Part shown: positions 12,312-44,900 of the stretch, one piece after another | Layout: each line of letters starts with the position of its first letter | Position numbering within the stretch: the stretch's first letter is position 1 | DNA from: Byssochlamys sp. IMV 00236 | Taxonomy: Eukaryota; Ascomycota; Eurotiomycetes; Eurotiales; Thermoascaceae | Direction of reading: 5' to 3' | Length of the DNA: 64,000 nucleotides | NCBI GenBank assembly: GCA_001931875.2 | Contig: MSJH02000809.1 | Span: forward strand, 248,001 to 312,000 | Notes under the pieces: model-generated | Seen by the model: only the letters and a program-made list of their open reading frames with translations | Told to the model about the DNA's origin: nothing | The model's database searches: none | Translations under genes and position numbers: made by a program

Positions 12312-13583
12312 ATGGCCACCGTCAATATCCGTCGGGATATCACCGATCCCTTCTACCGTTACAAGATGGAGAAGCTCCAGTCCAAGATCGAAGGTAAAGG
12401 CAACGGTATCAAGACTGTTGTCGTCAACCTGAACTCGGTCGCCCAGTCTCTCAGCCGGCCCCCATCTTACGTTATCAAGTATTTCGGATTCGAGCTGGGT
12501 GCTCAGGCGAACGCCAAGCCTACTGACGATCGCTGGATCATCAACGGTGCCCATGACGCCCCAAAGCTCCAGGACTACCTGGACGGATTCATTTCCAAGT
12601 TTGTACTTTGCAAGAAGTGCAAGAATCCGGAAACTGATGTGGTCATCAAAGACGGTCGGATCCTGCTTGACTGCAAGGCCTGTGGTCAGCGCTCCGAGGT
12701 TGACCCTCGTCTGAAGCTGAGCACTTTCATCATCAGGAACCAACCTACTAAGGGCAAGAAGGACAAATCCTCCAAGAAGAGCCGCCGTGACCGGAACAAG
12801 GATAAGAGTGATGCGACAGAAAACGGAGATAAAGATGGCAGCCCAGGCGACAGCAACAACTCAGAAGACGGAGAAGCGGAAGACCTGGCCATCGAGGCAA
12901 ACAGCGACGATGAGCTTACTCGTCGTATCAATGCGGAGGCCGAGAATCTTGATAAGGACGATGATATTGACGATGACAACTGGGCCGTTGATGTCTCGGA
13001 AGAGGCCGTCAAAGCCCGTGCCCAGGAGCTTCCTTCGGATCTCAAGCGTGCGCTTGTCATTGAGGATGCTGATGATGAAGAAGGCGATGGTGCCAGCGCC
13101 TATGACCAGCTTGGAAGCTGGATCATCAGCACCGCCGAAGGCAAGGAAGGTGGTGTTGCTGACGTCAGCGACATCGACATCTACATGAAGGCGAAGGAAC
13201 TTGGCATCGAGAGCAAGCACAAGACCTTGACAGTGTTGGCGCAGACTATCTTCGACGAGAAGATTGTTAAGCAGATTCCCAACCGCGCCTCCATGCTTAA
13301 GAAGATGATCACCTCCGAGCGCCACGAGAAGGCTTTCCTCGGTGGTACCGAGCGTTTCGTCGGCAAGGATCACCCTGACCTTATCCCTCAGGTTCCTGCT
13401 ATCCTGCTCCAGTACTACCAGCATGACCTAGTCTCTGAGGACGTGCTCAAGGCCTGGGGTTCCAAGGCTAGCAAGAAGTATGTCGACAGTGCGACCAGCA
13501 GGAAGGTCCGCAAGGCTGCTGAGCCCTTCCTCGAATGGCTCGAGAATGCCGAGAGTGATGAAGAGAGCGAGGAAGAGGAATAG
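12312..13583 (+). CDS. TIF5: Translation initiation factor eIF5
   Basis: GTPase-activating protein for eIF2 in the scanning pre-initiation complex. Single exon, 423 residues. The N-terminal domain starts MATVNIRRDITDPFYRYKM, with the arginine finger region intact. A four-Cys zinc ribbon follows (CKKC ... CKAC, residues about 99-121). A charged linker rich in K, D and E spans about 145-230. The C-terminal W2/HEAT domain ends in the usual acidic and aromatic tail (WLENAESDEESEEEE). The start context is AATCATGGCC. Length and order match other fungal eIF5 proteins. Antisense frames over this gene are codon-bias shadows. Confidence 0.97.
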   Translation: MATVNIRRDITDPFYRYKMEKLQSKIEGKGNGIKTVVVNLNSVAQSLSRPPSYVIKYFGFELGAQANAKPTDDRWIINGAHDAPKLQDYLDGFISKFVLCKKCKNPETDVVIKDGRILLDCKACGQRSEVDPRLKLSTFIIRNQPTKGKKDKSSKKSRRDRNKDKSDATENGDKDGSPGDSNNSEDGEAEDLAIEANSDDELTRRINAEAENLDKDDDIDDDNWAVDVSEEAVKARAQELPSDLKRALVIEDADDEEGDGASAYDQLGSWIISTAEGKEGGVADVSDIDIYMKAKELGIESKHKTLTVLAQTIFDEKIVKQIPNRASMLKKMITSERHEKAFLGGTERFVGKDHPDLIPQVPAILLQYYQHDLVSEDVLKAWGSKASKKYVDSATSRKVRKAAEPFLEWLENAESDEESEEEE

Positions 13584-19160: not shown

Positions 19161-21551
19161 CTATTCGACGCTATTTGCGTGTATGGCGTTATCAACACGA
19201 GAAGAGAGTCTAAACGTCTCGTCGAGTCCGATCCAGTGCATTGCGTCCAGCCGCAGCATACCCAAGTTCATCTGTTCATGATACCGGCTCTGTAGGCGCA
19301 AGACTTTTCTCCATCTGTCCACAAGCCTGCGAGCCTTGGCTGCGCGGGCTTCTGTCGGAGCCTGGATGAGCAGTAGCACGACGAAATTCGACATGACTGC
19401 AAAGCCAACTCGTGACCCTGAACATTGTTAGTTGCTGTCTTACATATATTAGAGGCACAGAAGTGGATGCTTACACGAATACCAGAACCCGCAGAAATCA
19501 GACGAGTTAAGATTCGTAACGAATTCAATCACTACTTCAGCGCACCTCTCGGCTGCATCAATGACTGCCTCTGCACCAGCACGAATGTCTGGGTCTATAG
19601 CGAAATCGTCTTGCGTTGCTGAATTGTCCAACGCAACGCATTGAGGGCCTGTTGGTCCTCTCCTCGCCAGCGGACGTAGCACGGCACGGTAGAGGTATAA
19701 CTCTAGGGTCAAATAGGCGAAGTGTACGGGGGCCGTAAGTCCTACCTCCTCAATTGAAGGCTCAGACTCAAATATCTTGCGTAACCGTAGTGACTCTGGA
19801 AGAGACGCATACCAGCGGCTCAGTTGTCCACGGAGCGGGCGGACTGTCTCTAATGAGCCACGGATATTTGTAGATAGTTCTCCAATAGTACGCACAGTAC
19901 TGTAACATCCAAATTAGCGTCACATTGTATCAATGGAAGTACGAAATCGTTTGAATAAAGTGAACTTACTAGAAAGCTTTATAGACATCTTCTGCGATCT
20001 GCGCCAGGCTGCAAATAAGGCGGAAGGGAAGCGCTTGCTGTATCTCGTTGCTAGATACATTAAGAATCGTGTCGAGATTTGATGGCACGGTATCCATTTC
20101 GAAGTCGTCATCTGTGAGCTCCGACACTTGCCAGTCGTCTGTATTGATAAACGAGGGACGGCCAGAGGAAAGGCTGCGCCATTTATCTTCCGAAAACGTT
20201 ATCCACCATAATCTCCTGCGCAAACGTTTCTCCCACCATGGAATACGCCAGGCCTGACAGTCTAGATGTAATCCTAGAGAAGTTGCAAGGCCAACGACAC
20301 TCCCCATGAAGGATGAATGGAAAGGGGTATCTGCAACAGCACTTGTGGATCCTGATCGAGGTTTGTGCTGATAGAGAAGTGCTGCCTGAAGTACCGAAAG
20401 CCGCGGATTGTGCATGTGTATCTGAATGTCGCGATAGGCAATTCTCCATATCTGGTCCGCTGGCGGCTTCCTGTAGACATTTGAAACACACAAGTAACTG
20501 TCGTATGGCACAAATGGTATAGCAGAAGCATAAACAGCTGCCAGCAAATGCGTGGGGATCTTTTGAAGCTCTGAAACATCTGGCAGTAAAGACGGCGCCA
20601 TGACTCGTAGCTGTGAGCGTGACACGACAGGAAACAATGGAAATACATGTGTTAAGAACCTATATAGTTTTAGTAAACGAAAAAGTTGATCAGGAACTGC
20701 ATTAACAATCGGTTCACATACAGTTTGAACAATCTGCGCCCATCTTCCGTAGGAATGAGATTTTCCAGTTCAGTCCTCAGATCGTGTTCTGAAGAAGATG
20801 GTGCGGTGTCACTCTTAAATCCTTCTACAAGGTCATTTGAAGCAATCATGAAATGAACAGGGACCTGCTCTGGTTCGCTGATATCAGCTACATTCCGGAA
20901 ATGCACCTTGTAGAATCTGCGAAGGCCGTGCTCATCAAATCGACAGTGTCGTAGCAGCCATGGATCTGACTCTGCAGATATTCCGAACAACTTCGCAGTG
21001 AAGTCTTGCATTTCATCAAGCGAATGATTTGTTGATGCATGATCCTCTCTCTGATAAGTCTCGGAACCGACACCCTGCGGCGACGAGTTCTGATTGACCG
21101 AGGATGCAGGAGATAGATCCGGGGCACCCCCGATATCTACGCTATGAATGCCATTGCTAGGTTTATCCTCTGTTGTGGGATCTTCTTCATGGTAGACCTG
21201 TGGCGATAGCACATCTTCCATGGCATCTTCGCCTGCTGATGTTTTCGGCGTAAAGTCGCCATACCGATCCAGCGAGCTGTCTGGGAAGCCTTCAGATGCC
21301 GCTATAGCATCCCAATTGAGCATCTCTCGCCCCAAGTCGAGATCCTGCCTCTTCACTTTATTGGATCGAGGTTCAACGGCCAGGACGAAAGTGCAGTCCA
21401 CCCGTGCTGCTTTGCAACGTTCGCACGGGGGTTCATGATCGATCCGGCAGCCCAGCTTGCGATGGCGACAGCGATCACATGGGCGACGTCGTTTAGATCG
21501 ATATGGTCGCGGACTGCCAGGAATGCAATTCGGGGAAGAGTTACTCGCCAT
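19161..21551 (-). CDS. Zn2Cys6 transcription factor with fungal-specific TF domain
   Basis: Nuclear DNA-binding regulator. Exons 20722-21551, 19970-20659, 19475-19899 and 19161-19417 give 733 residues in frame. The binuclear cluster is near the N-terminus (CDRCRHRKLGC ... CERCKAARVDC, about residues 25-53), preceded by the basic YRSKRRRP. The fungal-specific middle domain follows: FKLFLTHVFPLFPVVSRSQL (built across intron 1), WWEKRLRRRLWWITFSEDKW, SSGRPSFI. The joint across intron 3 gives FWYSWSRVGFAV, a usual motif of this class. Target genes are unknown. Its nearest neighbours are a GST and HNH-domain genes; the tyrosinase/UstYa group is 5 kb away, so a pathway-specific role there is possible but not shown. 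Confidence 0.92.
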
Positions 21552-22274
21552 CGAACAAAGGAGTCCTTGCTTGTTGAATATTAATGTCGGAGTTGTCGCT
21601 CTGATCCATCACCCCATTCTATCGGGGAGAAAGCCGTACTCTAAATTCTTAGTCTTTGGATTGACTAATAATTCGAGCTAATAGTTAATACGGGGTTATA
21701 ATCATCGCGCTAGAGCTAAAAGTGTATAACCGGCTAACGGGGTCACAAAGCTGGGCCAGAGCGATGTTCGCTCATTTTATTATCTGCGATACTTAAATAC
21801 ATCTGGGCAGATCTCCCCACTTTTGATTTCTTGATGCGGGGTTCACTGCGACATTGATAATCCCGAGTCGAGACTGGATGCCGCGGAGATTCTATTATAT
21901 TTCTGAAGTATTTTGGGTTTATTCAAACAACACCGAGATCAACCTATGGCTTCCTATGATTGAAATGTGTTGCTCCCTTGTGATGATCTCGTATACAAGT
22001 CCCATACCGATAAACGTCGATGCACCTCCAACTGAGATCACCCCCGGACGCACTGACGACTTGTGACCCGGATATCAGGCTGTTACTGAGGAGCTGCGAT
22101 GCTGATCAACTTTATATTTGAATTTTTTTTTTCCTCCATGTGGCTAAAGAATGCCTCCTAGAACAGAACACACAGTGAATCGTTGACAGTTGCCGCGACA
22201 ATGATCGCAAGAAGAAAGGCCAAGGCCACCCATCAATCGACTGACCCATATCATATCTAAATCCGGGAAATGAG
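21552..22274. other. Intergenic, no gene recognised
   Basis: About 720 bases: upstream region of the Zn2Cys6 gene and 3' flank of the GST gene. The short frames present show no family features. Confidence 0.5.
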
Positions 22275-26288: not shown

Positions 26289-27604
26289 TCATAGTAATTC
26301 ATCATATTGATAACACAAGATCCCTGTCTGCGTATCCATCACATCATCGACACTGACATCAGATGCGAAGCCGCCGAAATCGAGCATGTCTGTTATGTGC
26401 GCGGAAACGGTAGAGTTATTTCGTGAGATCCCATCGTAACCCCCTAAGGAGTTTCCATCGCGATGGTGACGCTGTTGCCAGATCCACCATACGCGATCAA
26501 CCTGGCCATGATGAAGGAAGAAGACGGGGTCTGTGGTGACCATTAGTATGGACTATTACAGATGGAAAAGAATGAGGACGGGATCCATGAGATAACATAC
26601 CATTTGGCGCGGTGACCTTGGAGAAATCGCCCTGGACAATATAGGGGATCGTTAGGTGAGAGGCCTGTTCCACCTTGAGTAGAAAGTCATAATAATCCCG
26701 CTCTTCGAATACCCGGTTCAGTATCGCCGGCTGGACGGTCAGTCTTCCGACCCTTCGGATCACTTCATCGGCGAGGAAACCTCTAGAAAGACAGTGAGGG
26801 TGATAATTCCCCTCATAGTAGGCGGCCTGAGCTCCTGCAAAGGGTCCGTCCAGAACACAGCGGCCGTTAGCAACGCTTTCAGTACCAGATCCGCTTCCTC
26901 CAAATCCAGTCTCATTATCCCAGACCGGGGACTTGCTTAGATCCTCCCAATCTAAAGACCAGTTCCAATACCTGTTAAGTGTGGAACGCAGATTGTCAGT
27001 CATTAGTAGAAACGGGGTGCCAGGTGAACACGCACGGTAGAACTCCACTATAGTTGCAGTGCTTGTGCAGCGCTTGCTCATATAGATGAATGAAATATCG
27101 ATGCCACGGGAGAAAAGGCGCGGCATTGTGAGCTAGATAGTTGGTTAGTCGTCGAATTCTCATTAAACTGCGACGAGCGCAGTTAAGGCAAGACCTTCAC
27201 ACACAGTAGTTTCCGATACGACTATGGAGGAACACAAAGTCGTCATGGATTGTAGTCTCTGATCGCCTCGTGGATGGCGATTCAGTCAAACAGCGGGCTG
27301 CTTCTATATACGCCAACTTTTCACTTCGGTCCAGCGTCCTCCATTCCCGCCGGACCGTGGGATTCTTGCATCGTCTCGACGGCACAGATGACGACGGGGA
27401 AAAAGACAGAATAAAAGCAACGACAGAGAGAAAGAAGACACCGGCAGTGATCGAGAGAAATATCCACCATAAACGATCGTGTTTTCTCACTGCTGCTTTC
27501 GAAGGTGGATTCGCATCTTCAGGATCGTCCGTCAGACCCGGGGACGCTGGGATAGTGGGAGGCCTGTCGCCAGAAAGAAAGCCGCATTTCGCAGACTCAT
27601 CCAT
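26289..27604 (-). CDS. Membrane-anchored tyrosinase-family copper oxidase (UstQ-like)
   Basis: Type-3 copper protein; tyrosinases hydroxylate and oxidise phenols, and UstQ of the ustiloxin pathway acts on peptide tyrosine. Exons 27205-27604, 27036-27132, 26601-26971 and 26289-26530 give 369 residues. Residues about 44-68 form a membrane helix (IFLSITAGVFFLSVVAFILS), so the catalytic domain is probably lumenal. The CuA site reads FVFLHS, NYSHNAAPFLPWHRYF, with three His. The CuB region has SHLTIPYIVQGDFS and NDPVFFLHHGQVDRVWW. Where most family members have H-x3-H, this one has H-x3-P, so one expected copper ligand appears lost. C-terminus is short, without the long tail of pigment tyrosinases. 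Divergent from the first UstYa gene across 524 bp. Confidence 0.87.
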
Positions 27605-28128
27605 TGGAAGAACATATCAATCGTACAATCCCTGAATGATTGCCTGCAAATATGTACTTTGTAGTTGGAGACTGCAGCGTTTCTGAAACTCGCCACTCGG
27701 ACAGAAACCCAACGACGACCACGAAACAGAAACCTGGACCACCATTTGCGGAAAATAGATACGACGTCAGATCAGCAATTATCTGTGGATTTTGGAGATT
27801 CTGCAGCCAAGTAGGCCTACTGCCAAAACGGTCCTAAGTCCGACAGCACGTTAACATTTGGCCCCCATGCAAGCTTTTGGCCCCATGCATCGGTAGCGTC
27901 GTGGGATTGAGCAGATCCCCAGCCACGGAGAGTCAGCAGTTGACACAAGACCTTAGTCCCTGTCATTGCTAGACTCGATGCGTGCTGTAATCTAGTTACT
28001 GTAATAATATCAGCCGAGTAAAGGTTCCTAGTAGCGTAACTTAGGTTGCTGATTCTGTTATTCTTTCCTATCTTCCTCTAAGCTCAGTGTTGTGCTTCAG
28101 ATGGATGCCGATTTTAATATCTCTGAAG
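27605..28128. promoter_or_regulatory. Divergent promoter, tyrosinase / UstYa-like gene 1
   Basis: 524 bases separate the start codons of the tyrosinase (minus) and the first UstYa-family gene (plus), so both are probably controlled from here. No binding site can be named with confidence. Confidence 0.5.
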
Positions 28129-29102
28129 ATGGCTCCAGAATACAAAATCCTGTCTACAGGTGAATCAGATGACGAGTCTGGTAATCTGAAATCTACCTCC
28201 CTAGAGAAAAAGAATCTCCCTCTGAAATGGAAACTTCTCATCTGCGGTCTGCTCTTATCGAATTTGCTCATGCTGGCCGCCTTTTATACGAATAGAGGCT
28301 TTTCTGAAAAGGAAAAGTCGCACCCTGAAGCAGTGCCCACGAATTATGGTGAGTTATTGATACGGGGGGGGTTGTCCATTAGTTTTTCATCATTTCATGC
28401 CCAAAAGCTCTAATTGGAAAGGGAAACAGCAAAAGTCGATACATTAGACACCATTTGGAGGCCATTCTGGTGGAACACGGAATACAGCAGTACGAATGCC
28501 TCCGAGGCAGATGAGCTCTGGGACGCCATTCTTCCTTCTCACGGCTTCGTCGCCATGGATCGCACCTGGGCAAAGGAGAACCAGTGGCCCGAAAGCATGT
28601 ACCTTCCATCGGATAAGAGTAAGGGAGTATATTTGCTGGAGGCGTATCATTACCTTCATTGCCTTGTAAGCGCATCCTTATGAGATCCTTGTGGCGTGGA
28701 TGGAGACAGTAAACTGACTGATGGAACCATTTAGCGAATCGTCCGCAGAACTTTCTGGGAAGCGGTCGAACAGAGGCCTTTTACGCACAAACCGGGCGCG
28801 CATATGAACCACTGCTTTGATGCGCTGCGTCAGGTATGCCGTTGTATCACAATGTGGGAGACCACTACTAAATGATCGTGTTCTAGTATGTTCAATGCAA
28901 CGCCGATAATACCCCACTGTACACATTCGGGGACTTTACTGCCGGCGACGGTCAAGTCCATAAGTGCAAGGACTGGGATCAGCTACGCAACTTTGCGACG
29001 CAGAATACAGCATGTTACCGGGATAGCGTGGAAGCAATTCCACTGGGCGAGCATTTCGGATTCTGCGACGATGGAAATGACGGCGTTATCGATTTACCTT
29101 AA
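28129..29102 (+). CDS. UstYa-family (DUF3328) oxidase 1
   Basis: UstYa-family proteins are membrane-anchored oxidases that cyclise or hydroxylate peptide precursors in fungal RiPP and some NRPS pathways. Exons 28129-28348, 28430-28665, 28735-28833 and 28887-29102 give 256 residues. An N-terminal cytosolic stretch (MAPEYKILSTGESDDESG) is followed by one membrane helix (LLICGLLLSNLLMLAAFYTN, about 43-62). Both signature HxxHC motifs are present: HYLHC at the end of exon 2 and HMNHC in exon 3. A WRPFWWNTEYSS-type segment and a Cys-rich C-terminus follow. An in-frame ATG at 28105 could add eight residues. It converges on UstYa-like gene 2 with 82 bases between the stops. Confidence 0.9.
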
Positions 29103-29184
29103 AATGACTATTTACTTTGAAAGATATTCTCTCGGTTGACGATAATGACATAAAGATCTTCTACCGATATATTCATATCACTGT

Positions 29185-30126
29185 TTACATTCTCGACCGT
29201 GCATCGCTGTGGTTGTGCGCAGGTAATAGTTCGTGGGGAATAAAGCCATGCGCGTCGAAGACCCTCCATTGTTCAGCCCATGCTTTGACTTCCTCGTAAC
29301 TGCGGCACTGTCGGTCAAAACCCCAGTTCGGATTATTGTTTATCATCTGAGTAGCTGGCTCCAGGTTGGCGTCTGCAGCGCACATGAGACTCTGGCGCAA
29401 GTAATCGAAGCAGTGGGCCACGTGAGGAGCTCGGTCGATGTTGAAGTCAAAGTCCTCGTTATCGGACGCAGTGGAGTAATATGCTCGACGGACTAGATAC
29501 TGTAGAAGAAGAAGACGAATTAGAACATCAAGAATACTACCAGTAGAAATCGCAAATTACGTACCAAGCAATGGAGCTGGTGAATTACACCAATCACAGA
29601 CAATTCCGGAGCCAATTCGGGGTGCTTGATATATCCCAGTCCATCTACAGATAGTGAGTGACGCGTTACAAGTAAACAAGAACGAAAAAAAGAAAAGACT
29701 TACTCGGTATGATGGCATTCCAGACAGTGTCTGGCTCGCTAGGCGGGGGAGCAGCTTCAAAGGCGGTATCGTGATGGACATGCTGCTTTGTCCAGTCGAA
29801 GAGAGGGACTGCCACTGTTATTCACATTCTTAAAAAAAAGAGAGGGAGGGAGAAGGGTCGCGGAAAAAGACAAATGGACTATACATACTCTTTGGAATGG
29901 TTCCTGGCAGATCAGATGTGCTAGAACAATTTGTCGAGGGTAGGAAATGCCTCGCGATGACAACGCCCATTACCAGCCCGCAAACCCACAGAGCAGCACC
30001 TGCTAAAGCATAGAAAAAGACAGCATATGGTATGCTCTTAGCATTCCGATTATTATCGACTTTTCCCTCCTCACTAGGTTCTCCTGAGAGCTTAGAGTAA
30101 CGTTGACCGAACAGCGAATCCATCAT
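29185..30126 (-). CDS. UstYa-family (DUF3328) oxidase 2
   Basis: Exons 29889-30126, 29704-29814, 29565-29644 and 29185-29499 give 247 residues. The N-terminus is cytosolic (MMDSLFGQRYSKLSGEPSEE), followed by a membrane helix (YAVFFYALAGAALWVCGLVM, about 33-55) and a lumenal domain. PSEPDTVWNAIIPN-GLGYIKHP leads to the first signature motif HQLHC; the second is HVAHC in exon 4, followed by FDYLRQSLMCAADANLEPA. Both motifs are needed in characterised members. It is quite different in sequence from the first UstYa-like protein, as usual for paired UstYa/UstYb enzymes with separate tasks. The promoter lies in 30127-30488, which is also the 3' flank of the small peptide gene. Confidence 0.92.
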
Positions 30127-30488
30127 TGTTGTGGTTGGGGTGTGGAGAGAAACTAAGTATGAGCTGGACAGCGGAGGGACCAAGTACTTTAACTGACTTA
30201 CTTAGTACTCAGAGGCCCCCATCTAGGTCAGGATGAAAACCGCCACTATATTGGCCAAACAAGTCAAGCAAGCAGATAACACGGCTTTACTGACTCTTCC
30301 TTTTGGGAAAATTGCACCGAAATAAAGTCTAGTTGTATTTGTTTTTGTATTTTATTTAGATATAAGATCAATTATGGTATCCTCTTAGAACGCCCTTGGG
30401 TCAAAAAGACCAAATCTCCATGCATATCACTTATTCGTCTAGCAGATTCGCACCCATCCCTTATAGTCTTGCTTCCCCGATGACTCGT
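30127..30488. promoter_or_regulatory. Promoter of UstYa-like gene 2 and 3' flank of the peptide gene
   Basis: About 360 bases between two minus-strand genes. AT-rich; no specific site identified. Confidence 0.4.
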
Positions 30489-30715
30489 TCAGTAAGTGTC
30501 GCCAATGTTCTTGAGGTCGACCTCGTCAGCTGAGTTGACGCGAGGAACTGCAGATTAAGAAACGTTAGAAGAGTTTATTGTTCGATGTTTCTGGCAATCT
30601 ATTCAATTGGAGACCACCTACCGGAGTGTTCGTCGTTGGGGGCAGCAATTGGGCTGGCCATGGAAAAGCCAACGAGGCCAAGGAGGAAGAAAGTGATAAC
30701 CTTGACGGACTGCAT
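30489..30715 (-). CDS. Small secreted peptide, candidate RiPP precursor
   Basis: Two exons (30622-30715 and 30489-30547) separated by a 74-nt GT-AG intron encode 50 residues. Residues 1-20 form a clear signal peptide (MQSVKVITFFLLGLVGFSMA) with likely cleavage before SPIAAPNDEHS. The remainder is hydrophilic and ends DEVDLKNIGDTY. After the signal the only aromatic residue is the terminal Tyr. UstYa and tyrosinase chemistry targets Tyr, so a gene of this kind next to them is a candidate substrate. Unlike known ustiloxin or asperipin precursors, it has no repeated core and no KR sites for Kex2. It could instead be an unrelated secreted peptide. The clean splice sites, frame closure and signal sequence support a real gene. 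Confidence 0.6.
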
Positions 30716-31511
30716 TGTGGAATATGGATGCACAGAGAGATCTGGTAGTGTTCGAATGGATAGATCTGATATTGAGCACACTTTCTGGTGTCGGCTTTGG
30801 AGGAGGAGAAGGATTGCTAGGTCTTTGCTATCGAGGATGGGAGGCCAACGACTACGGTGAGAGAGATTTAAGTATACAGCTGAATACAAGTTAATAATTA
30901 GATAGAGTCATGCATTGACACATAATAGGAAGGTCATGGGGGCCAGAAATGTTCCGCAGCGGGACGGGAGTGTGGAGAGCATATCGACTTTCCCAGCGTG
31001 ATGACATGGATTCATGGGGGTATTGGGGTTCTGCTAGTTCTCAAGCTGATATGCATTGTTTTAGAGCCGTTGTATGACCTAACTAATAATAATGCCGTTG
31101 AAAGGTCCAAGTATTCGACGGACCGCTGCAGATCCCTGAAGGGCCGAGGCAGACTTAGGACGGGATGAAGCGCCTGCAGCACCGGAAGTTGGGGGCCAAA
31201 CAGAAAGTTAGACACTAATGCTGCAGAAACAAGCATGGGGTTTGAGTTTACTAGATCTTATTATTTACCGGTAAAAATAGCACATTGGTCTTGATGCTAG
31301 GTACGCTGTGACAGGTGCACGCGTGCGAGATTCGCGAGAACCATTAACAGTGATCAGCGTCGTAAGCTACTTGATGGGGTTTCTTCAACTATCTGCAGCT
31401 AAAGGTATTTCGAAATATTCCCCTTCGTTATCTGTTAATGGTTAATTAAATTCGAATCTTAGTAACATACCACCGAAGAGAACCGAAGCGTCATCCTCAG
31501 TCAGTCACATC
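30716..31511. promoter_or_regulatory. Divergent region, peptide gene / O-methyltransferase
   Basis: About 800 bases between the starts of the minus-strand peptide gene and the plus-strand methyltransferase gene. No frame with recognisable features; presumably both promoters. Confidence 0.45.
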
Positions 31512-33015
31512 ATGGAATCCAATTCCGAGCTCTTGAAACTGGCTTCAGCGATATCCTCCTCCACAGCTACTCTAGATCGATATCTGAAGGATAACGGGAT
31601 AGCAGAGCCGTCGTTTGATGCCAATGCTCCTCCTCAACTGGCCCTCAAGTCTGCTGAAGCATTCCAAGCCAAAAACTCAGCTGTCAATGCATGCCTGGAG
31701 CTGCTCGATCGACTGCAAGGGCCACTGACATGTATGCTTCCTTTGGTAGGTTCTTAGTGATTGAAATGAATGTCAATTTAATAGCTTGCTAATGTCTGGT
31801 TAGTACAATGGCAGCGCCCTGCAGGCGATTTCACGCTACAATATTGCCACCCATGTCCCCATTGACGGAAGCGAGATTTCCTATCCCGATCTCGCCAGCG
31901 CAGCCGGTATACATGTCGATGATCTGAAGCAGGTCATCCGCTTCGCTATCGTTTTTCATCGACTGTTTCAGGAGCCCCGGAAAGGATATGTCACCCATTC
32001 TGCCGGGTCGCGCAAGATCGCAGAAGACCCAATTGTGCAGGCTGGTGTTGGGCAGTTCGATGAATTTTATGGCTCGTTTGCCAGAGTGAGTTCGTCGTGA
32101 AATTTAGATAATGCTGCTGCTGACAGTTAATCTCAGACGGTGGACGCCATGACCCAATTCCAGGGGCATGAGCCAAACGAAACGGTGCGTCAGGAAAACT
32201 ATCCTCACTCTTTTATCTTCTTCCTTTTCTGATTAATTTACAGGGTTTCTGCCTCTCCCACAATACCAACGAGGATCTATTTAGCTATCTTCGCTCGCGG
32301 CCAGCCGCAGCGAAGCAATTCTCCGAGGCGATGAAATTCTATACAGGTCCAATTCCGGCATATTCACCGAATCTCCTAGTGCAGGGCTATCCGTGGCATC
32401 AACTTGGGAAAGATGCTGTCGTAGTTGACATGGGGGGTTCAACTGGCCATGTCGCACAGTTAATTGCGCAGGCAGTGCCTGACATTCAGGTTATCGTCGA
32501 GGATCTCCCACATGTTGTCACAGAAGCAGAATCAGCAAGAGCCATGGACAACCAAGAGCTGCGACAACATCGTCCAGTCCTGTTCAAAGCACATGATTTC
32601 TTCACGCCGCAAACAGTTGTCGCCGATGCATACCTGCTCCGCTGGGTGCTGCACGACTGGCCAGATCACTACGTCCTCAAGATTTTGCGCCAGCTGGTGC
32701 CTAGTCTCCGAAAAGGAGCACGTGTTATTATTAACGAAAGCTTGTGTCCTGAATCAGGGTCATTGCCGCTGGCAACGGAGCGATACATCCGGTAGGGTCA
32801 TACTGATAATAGATCTTATAAAAAAAGGAAGCTGACGACGGTTGATCTCCAGATACATGGACTTGATGATGTTGGCCATTAACAAATCACGATTACGGGA
32901 CGAGGAAGAGTGGCAACAGCTGTTTCGCGAAGCGGACCCCAGGTATGGACAATTGAAGTGCTGGACACCGGAGGGATCAGCATTGGCCATTATGGAAGTA
33001 GTCTGGGAGGGGTAA
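31512..33015 (+). CDS. SAM-dependent O-methyltransferase (class II, secondary-metabolism type)
   Basis: Plant-COMT-like fungal O-methyltransferase that transfers methyl from SAM to a hydroxyl of a metabolite. Exons 31512-31745, 31804-32085, 32137-32184, 32244-32791 and 32853-33015 give 424 residues in frame. The N-terminal winged-helix dimerisation part contains YNGSALQAISRYNIATHVP. The SAM motif is VVVDMGGSTGHVAQLIA, followed by VIVEDLPHV. The catalytic region is YLLRWVLHDWPDHYVLKIL, with the base His in HDW, and the C-terminal part has RVIINE and YMDLMMLAINKSRLRDEEEW. Such enzymes usually tailor polyketides or phenols; here a catechol made by the neighbouring tyrosinase is a reasonable but unproven substrate. 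Confidence 0.93.
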
Positions 33016-37735: not shown

Positions 37736-40700
37736 CTAGAAAACCAGCTCTGCGAATCTCAAGTTTTCGCTCTGCACAAATTTCATCAGAGTTGCAGGTA
37801 GACGTGGGGAACTCGATATCGATACGGTTGGATTTGGCTGGTTCCTTTCCGTGTCTGTGGCATTGCGCTCCCTAGCTTGCTGGAAGATAAACCAGGTAAG
37901 GTCGCCGTTCCAGCTTTCCATAGCTTTGATTGCGCTTTCCACACTTTCGAGCTCCATACTCTTTGTTTCGGCTTGTTTGCGTAATCGTGACTTGGTATAG
38001 TAGTCTGGCCCTGCAAAAGCCGAAATCCACCAGCCCAATAAACCACATATCTCATCGCCAATAGCCAGCGGAAGACGAACGTGCGTAAGAAGGGCAATAA
38101 ATAATGATCCAAGGGCTTTCCAGATACTGTGGTAAGGAGTAAATGAATGAGCCCTTCCGGCCTCGGGTCCACTCGAGGAGAAACCAAGGCTAAGAGCCAT
38201 GTCGAGCTGTCCTTGGGAGTCTTTAGAGACGTCTGATGACTTGGGTGCAGCAGCGGATAGGTGCTGCATACGCTGAATGCGGCGCTCTTTGGCTCGCTCT
38301 GCGTCGAGAAGTACCTTTTCCCACACGCGATGATAAAGTCGCTTCCAGCGCGGAAATTCATTCTCCACGCGGGTTGCCATAAAGTCTCCTGCGGTCTTAC
38401 ACATCGTTTCGACAACGGCACATGCAGAGGTGATTACAAATGTCTCCTCTTTGATATCATTATCACCATTAACATTGTCTGATGCTTTTGCGATTTCTGA
38501 AGAGGCAGAAGCTGCTCTTCCAGACCTAGACAATGTCTCTGTCAATGAAGCAGGGGCGGCAATCCTCGCGGAGACTGAAGGCCAAAGGTCGTTGATAAGC
38601 GGCAAGAAACTGGTTTCATTCAGGGAAAGGACCGGAAGAGCTTGAGTGAGAATGGAAAGAAGTGAGCGGCGAAGAGATGGAGATGGGGAAGAAAGATGTG
38701 GCGGTATGGATTTGACGATATGCAACAGAAGTGTGTGAGATTTGCTTAATGGCTTCTCAGCGTCTTCTGGCTCTCGAGGTGGCGGTAGTGGTCCTTCTGA
38801 TTCGTCTGCCTCTAATGAGTCCGGAAAGGACTCCGGATCCTCCCGTGGCTGCTCAGGACCATCAAGTGCTGCTGTCCATGGCCGCGCTGGATGAGACACC
38901 TTTTGTCCGTCTTCATCCAGGTCGATCTCTGAATAGCGAGCTCTCTTGGACTTGCGAGTTGCCAAGTCCTCCGCTAGCTTAGAGACAGTAATAGGCTCGT
39001 ATTGGCGCTTCTTATGAGAAATGGCCTCTCCTTCCTTACCGGCTGTGATGGACAGCAAAGCTGGTTTCTTTACTCCCTCCTCCACAATAGCTGTCAGAGT
39101 CGAGAAGAGCAATTCGACTAGTCTTGGATAACCATGATACATATCCAGGATTCCAAAGATCGAATCAACCAGGTCATCCAAGTAAGGAATCAAGTTGGCG
39201 CCAGATAGCCTTACCATCATCAGCAGCACTTGTGGGGGATAAGGCGATACGTCGAATGTGTTTAGTTTCAATGCAATCGAGTTGACAAGGTAGTCAGCAT
39301 TTTCAATGAGCATAGTGCTTGTATCGGGGTAATTGCAAGCCGTAGTAAGGAAGTTGAGGCATGCCATCGCATGGTCCTGAAGACTCGTATTGTTCGAAGC
39401 CAAGAACCTAAGAACCGGGTACAAGGCATCGATAAGTTCAGGGCGGAAGGCCTCTCCAACTTCTTGCGCTTGCAGAGCGACTGCTTCCAGGGCGAGAGCT
39501 GAGACGCGCCAATCCCTAGAAGTCGTAATTGGGGCCTCGTTAAGTATGGGTAAAGCTTCATAGTACAACTCCTCAATAAGACCAGAACGAGTATACGATA
39601 ATGCTGTAGATCCCAAGGCATCTAGTGATAGGAGATCTTCGAAGCCCATGGTGCTTTGGGACGTATTTTTCAGGAAATTCAGAGCGAGCCAAAAAGGGGC
39701 TATGACAGAGTCACCGGAGGCATGATGTATTCGGTTCATTATTGATCGTGTAATTGCACCCGCAGAATCTGTGATATTGAGACCTGCAATTAGGGATCGT
39801 AATTCTTTTAGGGTGTTTTGCTGACTGCGATGTTCGAGGAGCACCGGTGGAAAAGATATCGACTTGGCCTTCTGACGAAGAACCTCGAGTTTGACCATGG
39901 AATCACCCGTAGAGCTCAATTGCTGTGGGCCACTGTCCTTGGCCTTGATAACTGCGGCAACACTGTCGCACAGGCCTGAGGCTATGCTGTCATCCAAAAT
40001 ACTAGAACTGGAGCTGATCTCAGAGAGAACGTTGAAAGTTGTGGAGATCTGTTTTATAGCTCTTTGCTTGGCTGTCTCATCATTCCCTTGCATGGTCCTA
40101 GGGAATGCTGTAATCCAGGTATGCAGCGATTCTTTAAGAATATCCACGACATATGTGTAAGTGATCGCAACATGCTTTAGAGCAGCATACCCATCATTCG
40201 CCATACGGTCCGTCTCATCTCCAGCCAGAACGACAATGGTTTCCACCATCAAAGGTAAGGATTCTTGAAGAGAACGAGGGCATCTCTCAACAACCATGAG
40301 ACAGAGCTCCAGTAGCGCACTTTTAACTTCCGGTTTTTCGTGGCGTCTTATTTGTATAACGTTTGCTAGAGCGATCTTTATTTGGCCAGCTGTAGCCTTC
40401 AGCCATGACTCATCTAGTGCAATTCTGTCGTCAGATTTGGGCTTCTCGGCCTGCTCTCCTGCATCGGATATTGCAACATCGTCACGAAGCACCGCTTTCA
40501 TGATCTCAGTTAATAAGTGCAGAGAGCTCTGAAGTAAACGAAATGAGCGGCGTGCTTGTGTCGTCGGTTTTATTATCTTTGTTAGTGCAGATATCGTCCG
40601 TGGCATAATGCTGGCTAGCACCACTCGATCTGTTATGCGAGAACAGAGCGCTCGAAGGGCTGCTACAGCCGCTTCCTGAACATCATTGGAACCGCCGTCC

Positions 40701-41313
40701 GTAAGCCCTTCGAGAAGGATATATGCGGTCTGATCAATTACCGTAGCGGTTCCGACTTCATTGAAGATAGTCCGCTCCGCCACGGGCCCCTCCAGCGCTG
40801 TAAAAAGAGCGCCTAAGCACCTGAATGCCGCGACGGCCAGCTCCTCGGAATCAGGCTTCTCGACCCCACCATTCTGATTTCGATTTGGAGGTCCACCAAC
40901 AAGTATAGTCATCAGAATAATAAGTTGTTTGCCCATCTGCGGCGATAGGCGATGCCTCCACCCCTTCTCGACCAATATTCGCAAACAATCCACAGCAATT
41001 TCAAGGCAACGGGCAGAGACCCTTTTTGTCTCGTTAAAGACGTGGGATAGAGGAAAGAATACATATTCTGCCAACTTCTCGTCAAGGGCGTCTTTAGTTC
41101 GAGGTTCGTTCAGCACGTTGTGCACGGCTTCAAGGGCGTGGAGGACGTCATTCGTAGTTGTTTGGTGAGCTCGAAATTTGAGACCGACGGAACTCAGTTC
41201 AACGCACGGCGGCCGTAACTGCAGACTTAGTTAGCCATAGACGCGATCTTAATGTAACTACTATAACTGGAAGTGCTTGCCTTCTTGAATGCCTCCTGCC
41301 GTAGGTCCTCCAT
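37736..41313 (-). CDS. TTI1: TTI1, TELO2-interacting HEAT-repeat protein
   Basis: Component of the TEL2-TTI1-TTI2 (TTT) co-chaperone that matures PIKK kinases (TOR, ATM, ATR) with Hsp90. Exons 41281-41313 and 37736-41218 give 1171 residues. The short first exon (MEDLRQEAFKK) joins LRPPCVELSSVGLKF in frame. The protein is a long alpha-helical repeat: VFFPLSHVFNETKRVSARCL, ILMTILVGGPP, ALEAVALQAQEVGEAF, and a C-terminal part with YHRVWEKVLLDAERA and LALAIGDEICGLLGWW-like segments. An acidic Pro-rich linker lies near residues 780-830. The single intron (41219-41280) starts with GC rather than GT (AAG|GCAAGC), a recognised minor splice type. Confidence 0.9.
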
Positions 41314-41998: not shown

Positions 41999-44900
41999 TC
42001 AAAACTGCCACTGCTGCAACCAGTTTCGCATCAATGACGCGGAGACTGGCCCCAGCGATCTCATGGTTTCACTTGCTTCTTTGGCTCGCTGGACATCCAG
42101 CGGCACTGAGAGCTTGCTTCCCTCGTCCAGCAGCCCTTGATAGAAACTCAGCAGTTTGAGAGCAGGTTTTTCAGCGATATCCATGTTGCTTGGGTTTTTG
42201 ATACTTTCAAGTTCAGTAAGCCACGCTGAAAACTCGACCGGCTGGACAGTATACTTGTCCTGGATGGCCGGGATCAGTGTTGACCATGGTGTTCGTTCCG
42301 GATTCACTAGATGAAACACGGCCCAGGGAGTATCTGACTGATTTACGCGGCGCATGGAGATTATATCCATCATAATTGAGGAGAGCGTGTCCTGTAAGTC
42401 GCAAGGTCAGCACGGACTGCAGCTGACAAACAATACAGTACCTTATGAACGACAAATCTTACCACAGGCACCCAATCAACCTCCATCGAGCCCAGTTGAT
42501 TAGGGATTTTCCCCATTGCTTTCGAGGTCACAATAATTGTTGGCAGCCATTCGTGCGGATTCCATTGTCCGCTGGCAGTAGTAGGGCCCGCGATTTGTCC
42601 TACGCGGTAGATAGTCGTAGGGACGCGAGATCTTCGCGATGCCTCCAGACAGATGCACTCCGCAATATATTTTGACTCAGCATAGCCTTGTGGGAGAACC
42701 ACCGAGCTGCCCATCGGTTGTTCTGGGACCAACGGTCCAAGATCTGGTGTCCAACCGCCCACTGTACTGATAGAAGAAACAAAGTGAATATGGGTTCTCT
42801 GGCGACTGCTCAAACTAAAATCAACAAAGTGGCGCACACCACGAATGTGAGTGTCTTCGAAGGAATCAACGGAATGATTGAAGTCGACTTTCCATGCATT
42901 GTGAATAATAGTATCGACGGAGTCAAGGAGTTCCCTGTATTTTTCCTCACTGAGACCAAATCGTGGTTCTCCGAATGAGGCTTGAAGGAACTCTACTTTA
43001 CCCTTCAAGTTACTCGCATCCGCGTACAGGCCCTTTCCTTCAAAGCCTTTCTTCTGTCGAAGCTCGGCGTCTGAACGATTGAGACAGTAAATTTTGGAAA
43101 CTGAATCGCTGTTCAACAGGGTATAGAGCAGATAGGTTCCCAGCGAACCAGTCGAACCAGTCAAAATCACAGTTGAGGGTAAATCTAATCCATTATCAGG
43201 GAGGGCTTCCTCCTTGACCGGGATATCGGACGTATACTTTTCGACTAACATCTTGATCTTGTCTTCCCGCGGTATACCATCCTGAACTTTTCCCTCTAAG
43301 ATATTCACGAGGACCCAAGCCAACTGCTCTATTGTCGGGTTAGCGTAAATTGTCTGAGCAGTGATCGCCCCCGGTTTTATTTCCGGCCGACGAAGCTGTA
43401 TGCCCTTTTGCAGCGTTCGAGAGATCTGAATAGTCATTAAAGAATCAAGGCCAGCACTATAGAGGTCTTGATTGATCAGAACTTCAGACTTTCCCAAGAC
43501 ACGGATTACGGTCTGGCGTATATACTCTGTAATGGTTTCTGGGTCCAAGGTCTCGGGAACATGATGGTCCAAGTCATCTTCCAGTTCTGTAGCATAGAGT
43601 GCATCAATCTCTTTCTCATAATCTCGAAGAACAGCTCTACGCTGAATAGTGCCTTTCGGAGTTCGTTTGAATGGTTTGGTCTTTGAGGCGAGTCTGATAT
43701 TGCTCTTCACGATCCGACCATGGGCAGCAATAGACTGATTTGCCTCTTGGACAGTCGGCCAGATTTCCTCAATGAAGATATTGTCGTCCATTTCTGGGAC
43801 GCCCTGGTTTGGTTCCACGAGCAGCCCAGCTTGAAATCGGGACTCGCCGACTACCAGTGCCCCTCGAACCAGGGGATGTCCTGCGATGATTGTCTCCATT
43901 CCGACAGGATTGAATTTCTCGCCGTTGCTGAGGACAATAACATCATCCTTTCGCCCGTAGAATTTCCATAAACGCGGGTTTGTCGGATGTTGAATATACA
44001 GATCGTTGGTTCGGTACACTTTGATTTCGGGGTAAATATGGAAGACACCTTGAAACTCGCGGGAATTCTGCTGTCGAGGAATGACCATCTCGTACAGACC
44101 GTCGCCAAAATCCTGCATATCCAGCCCGTATGCTTCATTCCATTCAAAATAACTCCAGTTGGCTTCGTCCTCCGGCACTAAAGATGGCACCACGCCAATC
44201 TCACTAGCACCAAGAAGAGGTACGATCTGAGTATATTGGCGCAGCCGCTCTCCCGTCTCTGGTGCGAGAGGCGCACCTCCAAAATTCACTGTCCTAAGTC
44301 CTTTGAGACAGTTCAATGCATCACTGGAATGACTCAGGTCTTCCAGGATCGAGGGTGGAAAGACCGCAGCTGTGGGACGGGTTGTCTGTAGAAGTCCTAC
44401 CAAGTGTTCCACCGATAGGGGCTTGTCAGGGCCATACAGGACAGGGATCCCGAACCAAATTGACAAGACAAAGGAGAGTAGTCCCATCCCATGGAAGAAA
44501 GGTGTCGTGGATAGTAGCAGGTCTTGTGAGCTCAGAGTGATGAATGCAGCTGGCTGGCGACCAGCCGGCCATGCAAGCTGAGCAAGATTATCGATGCACA
44601 TCCAGAAACCGTTTGTAAGATTAACTGGTTTCGGCATGCCTGCATGAAAAGAATTAGCACATTATTGCATTATGTCCGTCATACACCTACCTGTGGTTCC
44701 GGAACTATGGATGATGCACAATGTCTCGTTTTCTGCATCAGCATAAGATTTGGTGTACGCATACGAGCGTTGTCCACCCTCATTGCTGAGAATTTCCTTC
44801 AAAGTCGGAACCCGGAAGACTTCCAAGGAAGGCAAAAGTCCTTTTATTTCCAATGTTCGTGTTTCTCGTTCCTCGCTAAAGAAGAACTTGTTGCAACTTG

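Follow-up and report, generated by a model that had tools for sequence, protein, structure and literature searches.

The closest described systems to the locus considered here are the ustiloxin B and phomopsin clusters and a group of lichen clusters known as Clan R1. In ustiloxin biosynthesis the tyrosinase UstQ together with UstYa and UstYb yields the first cyclic intermediate, and UstM methylates afterwards (relevant sections of PMC6514808). The ustiloxin and phomopsin cores follow the pattern YXIX, with the Tyr ahead of the Ile, according to the parts of PMC7329392 that treat them. CctR, a DUF3328 protein like UstYa, is presented in the corresponding sections of PMC12435403 as a copper enzyme whose HxxHC pairs bind two copper ions and which hydroxylates an unactivated C-H bond. 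Clan R1 was described in 2025 as confined to the Parmeliaceae and comprises a tyrosinase, two UstY proteins, an O-methyltransferase and a formylglycine-generating enzyme (FGE)-sulfatase; the passages of PMC12048977 devoted to it report no repeated precursor and consider a single core possible. We analysed a stretch of 64,000 nucleotides (the window) from Byssochlamys sp. IMV 00236 (assembly GCA_001931875.2, contig MSJH02000809.1, positions 248,001 to 312,000 of the forward strand), in which five genes within 6.7 kb encode a comparable set of enzymes plus a short secreted peptide. We hold with moderate confidence that these genes are best read as a reduced dikaritin-like cluster for a ribosomally synthesized and post-translationally modified peptide (RiPP) with a single-core precursor.

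The predicted gene models have consensus-type introns of 51-81 bases and open frames. In window coordinates the features are:

26289-27604, minus strand: membrane-anchored tyrosinase-like protein, 369 aa, PF00264; 4 exons (27205-27604, 27036-27132, 26601-26971, 26289-26530)
27605-28128: divergent promoter region of 524 bp between the tyrosinase and UstY1 genes, holding the 9-mer GGCCCCCAT at 27860-27868
28129-29102, plus strand: UstY1 (DUF3328/UstYa), 256 aa, two HxxHC motifs; 4 exons (28129-28348, 28430-28665, 28735-28833, 28887-29102)
29185-30126, minus strand: UstY2 (DUF3328/UstYa), 247 aa, two HxxHC motifs; 4 exons (29889-30126, 29704-29814, 29565-29644, 29185-29499)
30127-30488: region upstream of UstY2, holding GGCCCCCAT at 30214-30222
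30489-30715, minus strand: candidate single-core precursor peptide, 50 aa; 2 exons (30622-30715, 30489-30547)
30716-31511: divergent promoter region of 796 bp between the peptide and O-methyltransferase genes, with GGCCCCCAT at 30936-30944 (minus strand)
31512-33015, plus strand: S-adenosylmethionine-dependent O-methyltransferase, 424 aa, PF00891; 5 exons

The tyrosinase and UstY1 genes thus diverge, UstY2 comes next, and the peptide gene, on the same strand as UstY2, diverges from the O-methyltransferase gene. Pfam places the tyrosinase in PF00264 (3.7e-38), the two UstY proteins in PF11807 (3.4e-26 and 1.1e-22) and the methyltransferase in PF00891, Methyltransf_2 (1.7e-29); it assigns no family to the 50-residue peptide. 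The paired motifs, read from the translations, are HYLHC and HMNHC in UstY1 and HQLHC and HVAHC in UstY2, and two such motifs also occur in 85 of the 92 listed UstY relatives of at least 200 aa. Database proteins of Paecilomyces variotii agree with the models: P0002 equals the tyrosinase over 369/369 residues and P0001 ("hypothetical protein") the peptide over 50/50, P0122 is identical to UstY1 at 253/256 positions and P0123 to UstY2 at 237/247. By these identities the source is P. variotii or a very near relative. A two-residue gap between UstY2 and P0123 falls at an intron border, so the splice site of the first intron may be off by two codons. Gene models, Pfam matches and database proteins confirm the inventory given by an earlier sequence-only reading (tyrosinase, two UstYa-family proteins with both HxxHC motifs, 50-residue secreted peptide and O-methyltransferase in 6.7 kb), the outer limits of which, 26289 and 33015, are exactly ours.

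Judged by its gene content, the cluster is of the same broad kind as Clan R1, here in a mould and with a candidate precursor. Both have a tyrosinase, two UstY proteins with double HxxHC motifs and an O-methyltransferase, and both lack a P450, flavin monooxygenases and a pyridoxal phosphate (PLP) enzyme; Clan R1, as far as its description goes, differs in its FGE-sulfatase, a second type of methyltransferase and the position of the O-methyltransferase gene between the UstY genes, and no precursor is identified there. We found no FGE-sulfatase among the five genes or the 20 flanking open reading frames (ORFs) scanned as single ORFs (of 78). The ustiloxin B cluster (ustA, ustQ, ustYa, ustYb, ustM) likewise combines a tyrosinase, two UstY proteins, a methyltransferase and a secreted precursor. 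As described, however, UstA bears 16 YAIG cores flanked by KR, whereas a single core without KR is present in the window peptide; the methyltransferase UstM acts on nitrogen, whereas our enzyme is of the PF00891 O-methyltransferase type; and the five window genes include no P450, flavin monooxygenase or PLP enzyme. In the phomopsin cluster (phomA, phomQ, phomY*, phomM) the tyrosinase PhomQ1' is 41% identical to ours and, like it, lacks the second CuB histidine; that cluster differs, in the accounts available, by an eight-core repeat precursor and five UstY proteins, and S41 peptidases are conserved in such clusters.

Measured against the dikaritin definitions quoted in PMC12048977, the window holds UstY proteins with two HxxHC motifs, a tyrosinase, a methyltransferase (an O-methyltransferase, not of ustiloxin's N-methyltransferase type) and a candidate with a signal-peptide-like start and a leader, whose role as precursor is putative. 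The definitions further name a Tyr-derived ether macrocycle in the product. Neither a transporter nor a peptidase is among the five genes; the only transporter among the flanking ORFs scanned is a major facilitator superfamily protein at 1.8-3.3 kb, 23 kb away, and known dikaritin clusters can be without a peptidase, according to the passages on them in PMC12048977. Repeated core or recognition motifs, a feature of the stricter definition, were not found in the window, and the cluster is for that reason filed as dikaritin-like and not as a proven member. The sequence-only reading had called it undescribed, with an enzyme set fitting the logic of ustiloxin-like ribosomal synthesis. The fit stands, given the tyrosinase with two UstY proteins, the signs of linkage in other fungi and a plausible precursor; the novelty does not extend to the enzymes, whose set is that of Clan R1. 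What is new is the candidate precursor with a single core. Our searches of the open-licence PMC literature listed no paper that describes this cluster, judged by title or abstract start, and the word "tyrosinase" is absent from the body of the article on the P. variotii genome (PMC6300479).

The peptide gene and its promoter context

Chance does not account for the peptide ORF. When codon usage is scored with a training set made up of the other four cluster genes plus two housekeeping ORFs, and not the peptide, the peptide scores above 2868/2868 intergenic 50-codon windows, and its other two frames lie near background. Its start is signal-peptide-like, in the context CACAATG. Scans for such starts, crude and blind to first exons shorter than about 24 codons, gave eight candidates at 18-38 kb, of which the peptide alone also passed a stricter scan (purine at -3) that retained three starts in the whole window. 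A crude scan of 208,844 bases, overlapping loci included, returned 23 starts, among them the peptide's own three times (through overlaps) and those of the three repeat precursors discussed below.

The layout suggested by the translation is a signal peptide to about residue 20 (a crude script would cut after residue 16), a leader ending in Pro-Arg34, and an acidic stretch with the core in residues 35-50; these cleavage sites are predicted ones. The C-terminal Tyr50 is the sole Tyr, Phe or Trp of the secreted part. The gene lies 362 bp from UstY2.

A Kex2-repeat precursor inside the window was also considered and rejected: neither our script nor a tandem-repeat finder found one, while the same script found them at three other UstY loci of the genome, so the sequence-only reading was right that the window has none. 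The peptide itself lacks the arrangement used as a criterion in PMC7329392, namely three or more repeats, each 8 residues or longer, set between KR, KK, RK or RR.

The 9-mer GGCCCCCAT occurs 4 times in the 64 kb against 0.34 expected, a count reached in 0/100 shuffles. Three of the four copies lie in the three cluster promoter regions (the fourth is at 12457), and it is the only 9-mer found in all three. Some 9-mer common to three regions of such lengths arose in 11/1000 dinucleotide shuffles and in 36/2000 random triples of real window segments. These figures give moderate evidence that all five genes, those for the peptide and the O-methyltransferase included, may be regulated together, with GGCCCCCAT as a putative regulatory element. 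A 10-mer, GGCCCCCATG (39 copies in 47.4 Mb, two of them in the cluster), was not counted, since chance alone is expected to give two promoters a 10-mer in common. A Zn2Cys6 transcription factor gene (window 19449-21608, minus strand), about 5 kb away from the tyrosinase, could be a cluster regulator; against this role, a glutathione S-transferase-like ORF lies between, and the upstream region of the factor gene is devoid of GGCCCCCAT.

Repeat precursors elsewhere in the genome

UstY matches occur at seven loci of the genome, the window among them. At three of the remaining six, the stretches examined contain a clear Kex2-repeat precursor, which lies about 0.6-1.5 kb from the part of a UstY gene that was matched. 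The precursor at C802 (C802:80167-80583, minus strand; exon 2 also at L009 9168-9392) has three cores of the YAYIAVD type. The one at C827 (L012 7819-8381, minus strand) repeats SADDEAIPFYP eleven times, with KR between the copies and a substitution in one of them, and the one at C810 (L015 2373-2846, minus strand) has four cores of the DLIEYYI/ELVKFYV type. All three resemble the window peptide in having a signal peptide and an acidic stretch before an aromatic-bearing core, beside UstY genes, and those of C802 and C827 share with it, by modelled splicing, a phase-1 intron after the leader. They differ from it in having three or more cores with dibasic separators, where the window peptide has one core and PR instead of KR.

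The likeness is most detailed for C802, where signal peptide, a leader of the form P-x-A-x-P-N-D-[D/E], phase-1 intron, acidic stretch and core are all common to the two. The leaders read SAPMAEPNDD in C802 and ASPIAAPNDE in the window peptide, and the phase-1 introns are positioned one codon apart, the C802 splice being a model without transcript support. With signal peptides excluded, the score of the local alignment between the two was reached by 17/5000 shuffles, and that of the leader alone by 2/5000. The simplest reading of these features is that the window gene would be a precursor of the same make as that of C802, reduced to one core.

The repeat precursor of C802 adjoins two UstY genes and, from ORF reading only, an ABC-transporter-like gene, and the locus has no tyrosinase match; on this content it is classed as a separate dikaritin-like cluster of the same fungus. 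The closest paralog of UstY2 among the loci examined is at C663 (L018 4-303), with 49% identity over 100 residues. ORF reading, with no family scan, revealed no cluster-like gene set around it; a neighbour is presumably beta-lactamase-like.

The tyrosinase-UstY module in other fungi

The tyrosinase has 759 relatives, and the best 120 of these include PhomQ1' (P0066). In a tree of 46 of the 120, P. variotii falls in a 13-row clade (100/100) whose named members are Eurotiales; six named Xylariales-type rows join this clade weakly (81/37), and one Eurotiales row, Aspergillus carbonarius, stands elsewhere. For the UstY proteins 120 relatives were listed, and in a tree built from 56 of them UstY1 and UstY2 form separate groups. 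Nine rows group with P. variotii UstY1, and the species behind six of them recur in the tyrosinase clade: A. sclerotioniger, A. pseudonomiae, A. oleicola, A. crustosus, A. spectabilis and Penicillium angulare. Lichen proteins are among the UstY1 relatives listed (Imshaugia, 62%; Usnea, 73% over 71% of the query; both genera are, we assume, Parmeliaceae), and the lichen tyrosinases in the tree fall outside the Paecilomyces clade.

Linkage was compared in the organisms named in both match lists, 20 in all, from which P. variotii (rows standing for many strains) and A. pseudonomiae and P. angulare (matches from different strains) were dropped, leaving 17. Among the matches listed, the tyrosinase and a UstY protein are on contigs of equal size in 11 of the 17. 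Some of these contigs are small (Nemania bipapillata 9,059 bp, A. spectabilis 14,501 bp, Xylaria telfairii 31,662 bp); large contigs of equal size cannot demonstrate adjacency. Contig size is a weak stand-in for synteny, and scans for UstY in the collections genome_contigs and viral_contigs gave no relative. Talaromyces rugulosus, with a 5-Mb contig and gene numbers about 750 apart, gives no support, and P. variotii No. 5 is itself one of the eleven. The locus tags of UstY1 and UstY2 follow directly on each other in P. angulare (000963 and 000962), and both are on 23,860-bp contigs in A. oleicola. There are thus signs of tyrosinase-UstY linkage in relatives.

For the copper site of the tyrosinase we compared 119 relatives, the 120 listed less P0101, whose sequence runs through introns. 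The position of the second CuB histidine is occupied by Pro in 95, Ser in 15, His in 6, Asn in 2 and Arg in 1, and PhomQ1' is among those with Pro, whereas H225 and C226 of the window tyrosinase are invariant in 119/119. In an alignment with hemocyanins the canonical CuB histidine stands opposite the Pro of the window protein in several units (region of residues 271-275). An altered copper site in this tyrosinase family is possible, in which H225 or C226 might stand in for the missing ligand.

Proposed pathway and competing readings

In the pathway that we propose, the 50-residue peptide would enter the secretory pathway and lose its signal peptide, and a Kex2-type or other protease would cut after Pro-Arg34, which we take to be a possible Kex2-type site, to release residues 35-50. 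The tyrosinase-like protein and the two UstY oxidases, as copper enzymes, would then oxidise Tyr50 and/or cross-link it to an upstream aliphatic side chain (Ile46 or Leu43), and the O-methyltransferase would cap a phenol, catechol or carboxyl oxygen. Tyr50 is proposed as the target because no other Tyr, Phe or Trp follows the signal peptide; being C-terminal, with its aliphatic partner upstream, it differs from the Tyr of the YXIX cores. Processing sites, substrate, chemistry, product and co-regulation are all inferred.

Several observations weigh against this pathway and against the single-core reading as a whole. The peptide contains neither a dibasic Kex2 site nor a repeat, and it lacks the YxIx motif. 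A search of 5.8 billion proteins for its relatives returned one match, P. variotii itself, in a method that depends on shared 5-residue words and for a class of short genes often left unannotated, and no paralog was found in its own genome. The alignment score was reached by 53/5000 shuffles for C827 (first two repeats) and by 1187/5000 for C810, so that one of three precursors fits poorly, and all the shuffle figures flatter the case somewhat, since the likeness of the leaders was seen before testing and three comparisons were made. Tyrosinase and UstY contigs differ in size in 6 of the 17 organisms (A. oleicola, Dothistroma, Nemania diffusa, Polyplosphaeria, Usnea and Xylaria longipes), a mismatch that is also weak evidence, as some rows stand for several sequences. 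The signs of linkage in other fungi are confined to the tyrosinase and UstY genes and do not extend to the O-methyltransferase and the peptide.

A further point on that side is that DUF3328 enzymes also act on non-ribosomal peptides and polyketides (sections on these enzymes in PMC12048977; CctR, PMC12435403). The substrate of the tyrosinase, UstY proteins and O-methyltransferase might accordingly be a non-ribosomal product or another small molecule, with the gene of the secreted peptide as an unrelated neighbour, as the solitary database match of the peptide would also allow. A gene like those for non-ribosomal peptide synthetases, with adenylation, carrier and reductase domains, does lie about 9 kb off (window 42370-44661, minus strand, probably to about 45548), and we give it low weight as a source of the substrate because the housekeeping gene TTI1 (37736-41230) stands between it and the cluster. 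Tyrosinase plus two UstY proteins is, moreover, the ustiloxin combination, and the peptide gene is laid out like a precursor gene and has the promoter word GGCCCCCAT in common with the rest of the cluster; we regard this alternative as unlikely.

A ribosomal cluster might also have as its true precursor some other unrecognised short gene nearby, with the 50-residue peptide a bystander. Very short genes are easily missed, and for Clan R1, which has the same set of enzymes, the published description recognises no precursor (PMC12048977). Against that stands the outcome of the start scans, crude as both are, in which the peptide alone of the eight candidates withstood the stricter conditions, and we think the bystander improbable. 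The enzymes could, again, act in trans on a repeat precursor elsewhere: C802 offers Tyr-rich cores and two UstY matches, and a six-frame search of the genome gave PF00264 matches only in the exons of the window tyrosinase. C802, however, has two UstY genes of its own, and in relatives the window tyrosinase seems to be linked with the UstY genes of its cluster; we consider action in trans about as improbable as the bystander.

The reduced cluster with a single-core precursor, for which we have stated our preference, would if true explain why repeat-based searches miss such clusters, the core being present in one copy in a very short gene. A large precursor survey, as its methods are given in PMC7329392, required at least 3 repeats between dibasic sites, and a single-core gene would be invisible to it. 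More tentatively, and short of an even chance, single-core precursors with PR instead of KR could be the missing substrates of a widespread class of mould and lichen clusters with a tyrosinase and two UstY proteins (plus an O-methyltransferase) unseen by repeat mining; the window peptide would then be a one-repeat precursor of dikaritin type, served by a tyrosinase-like family that lacks one canonical CuB histidine. CRISPR/Cas9 works in P. variotii, according to the relevant part of PMC8017634, and a culturable mould with an enzyme set of the Clan R1 type and a defined candidate gene would make the single-core question directly testable.

The assembly itself, 840 contigs with 47.4 Mb in total, is larger than the genome of P. 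variotii, which has about 30 Mb, and a second organism or haplotype may be present in it.

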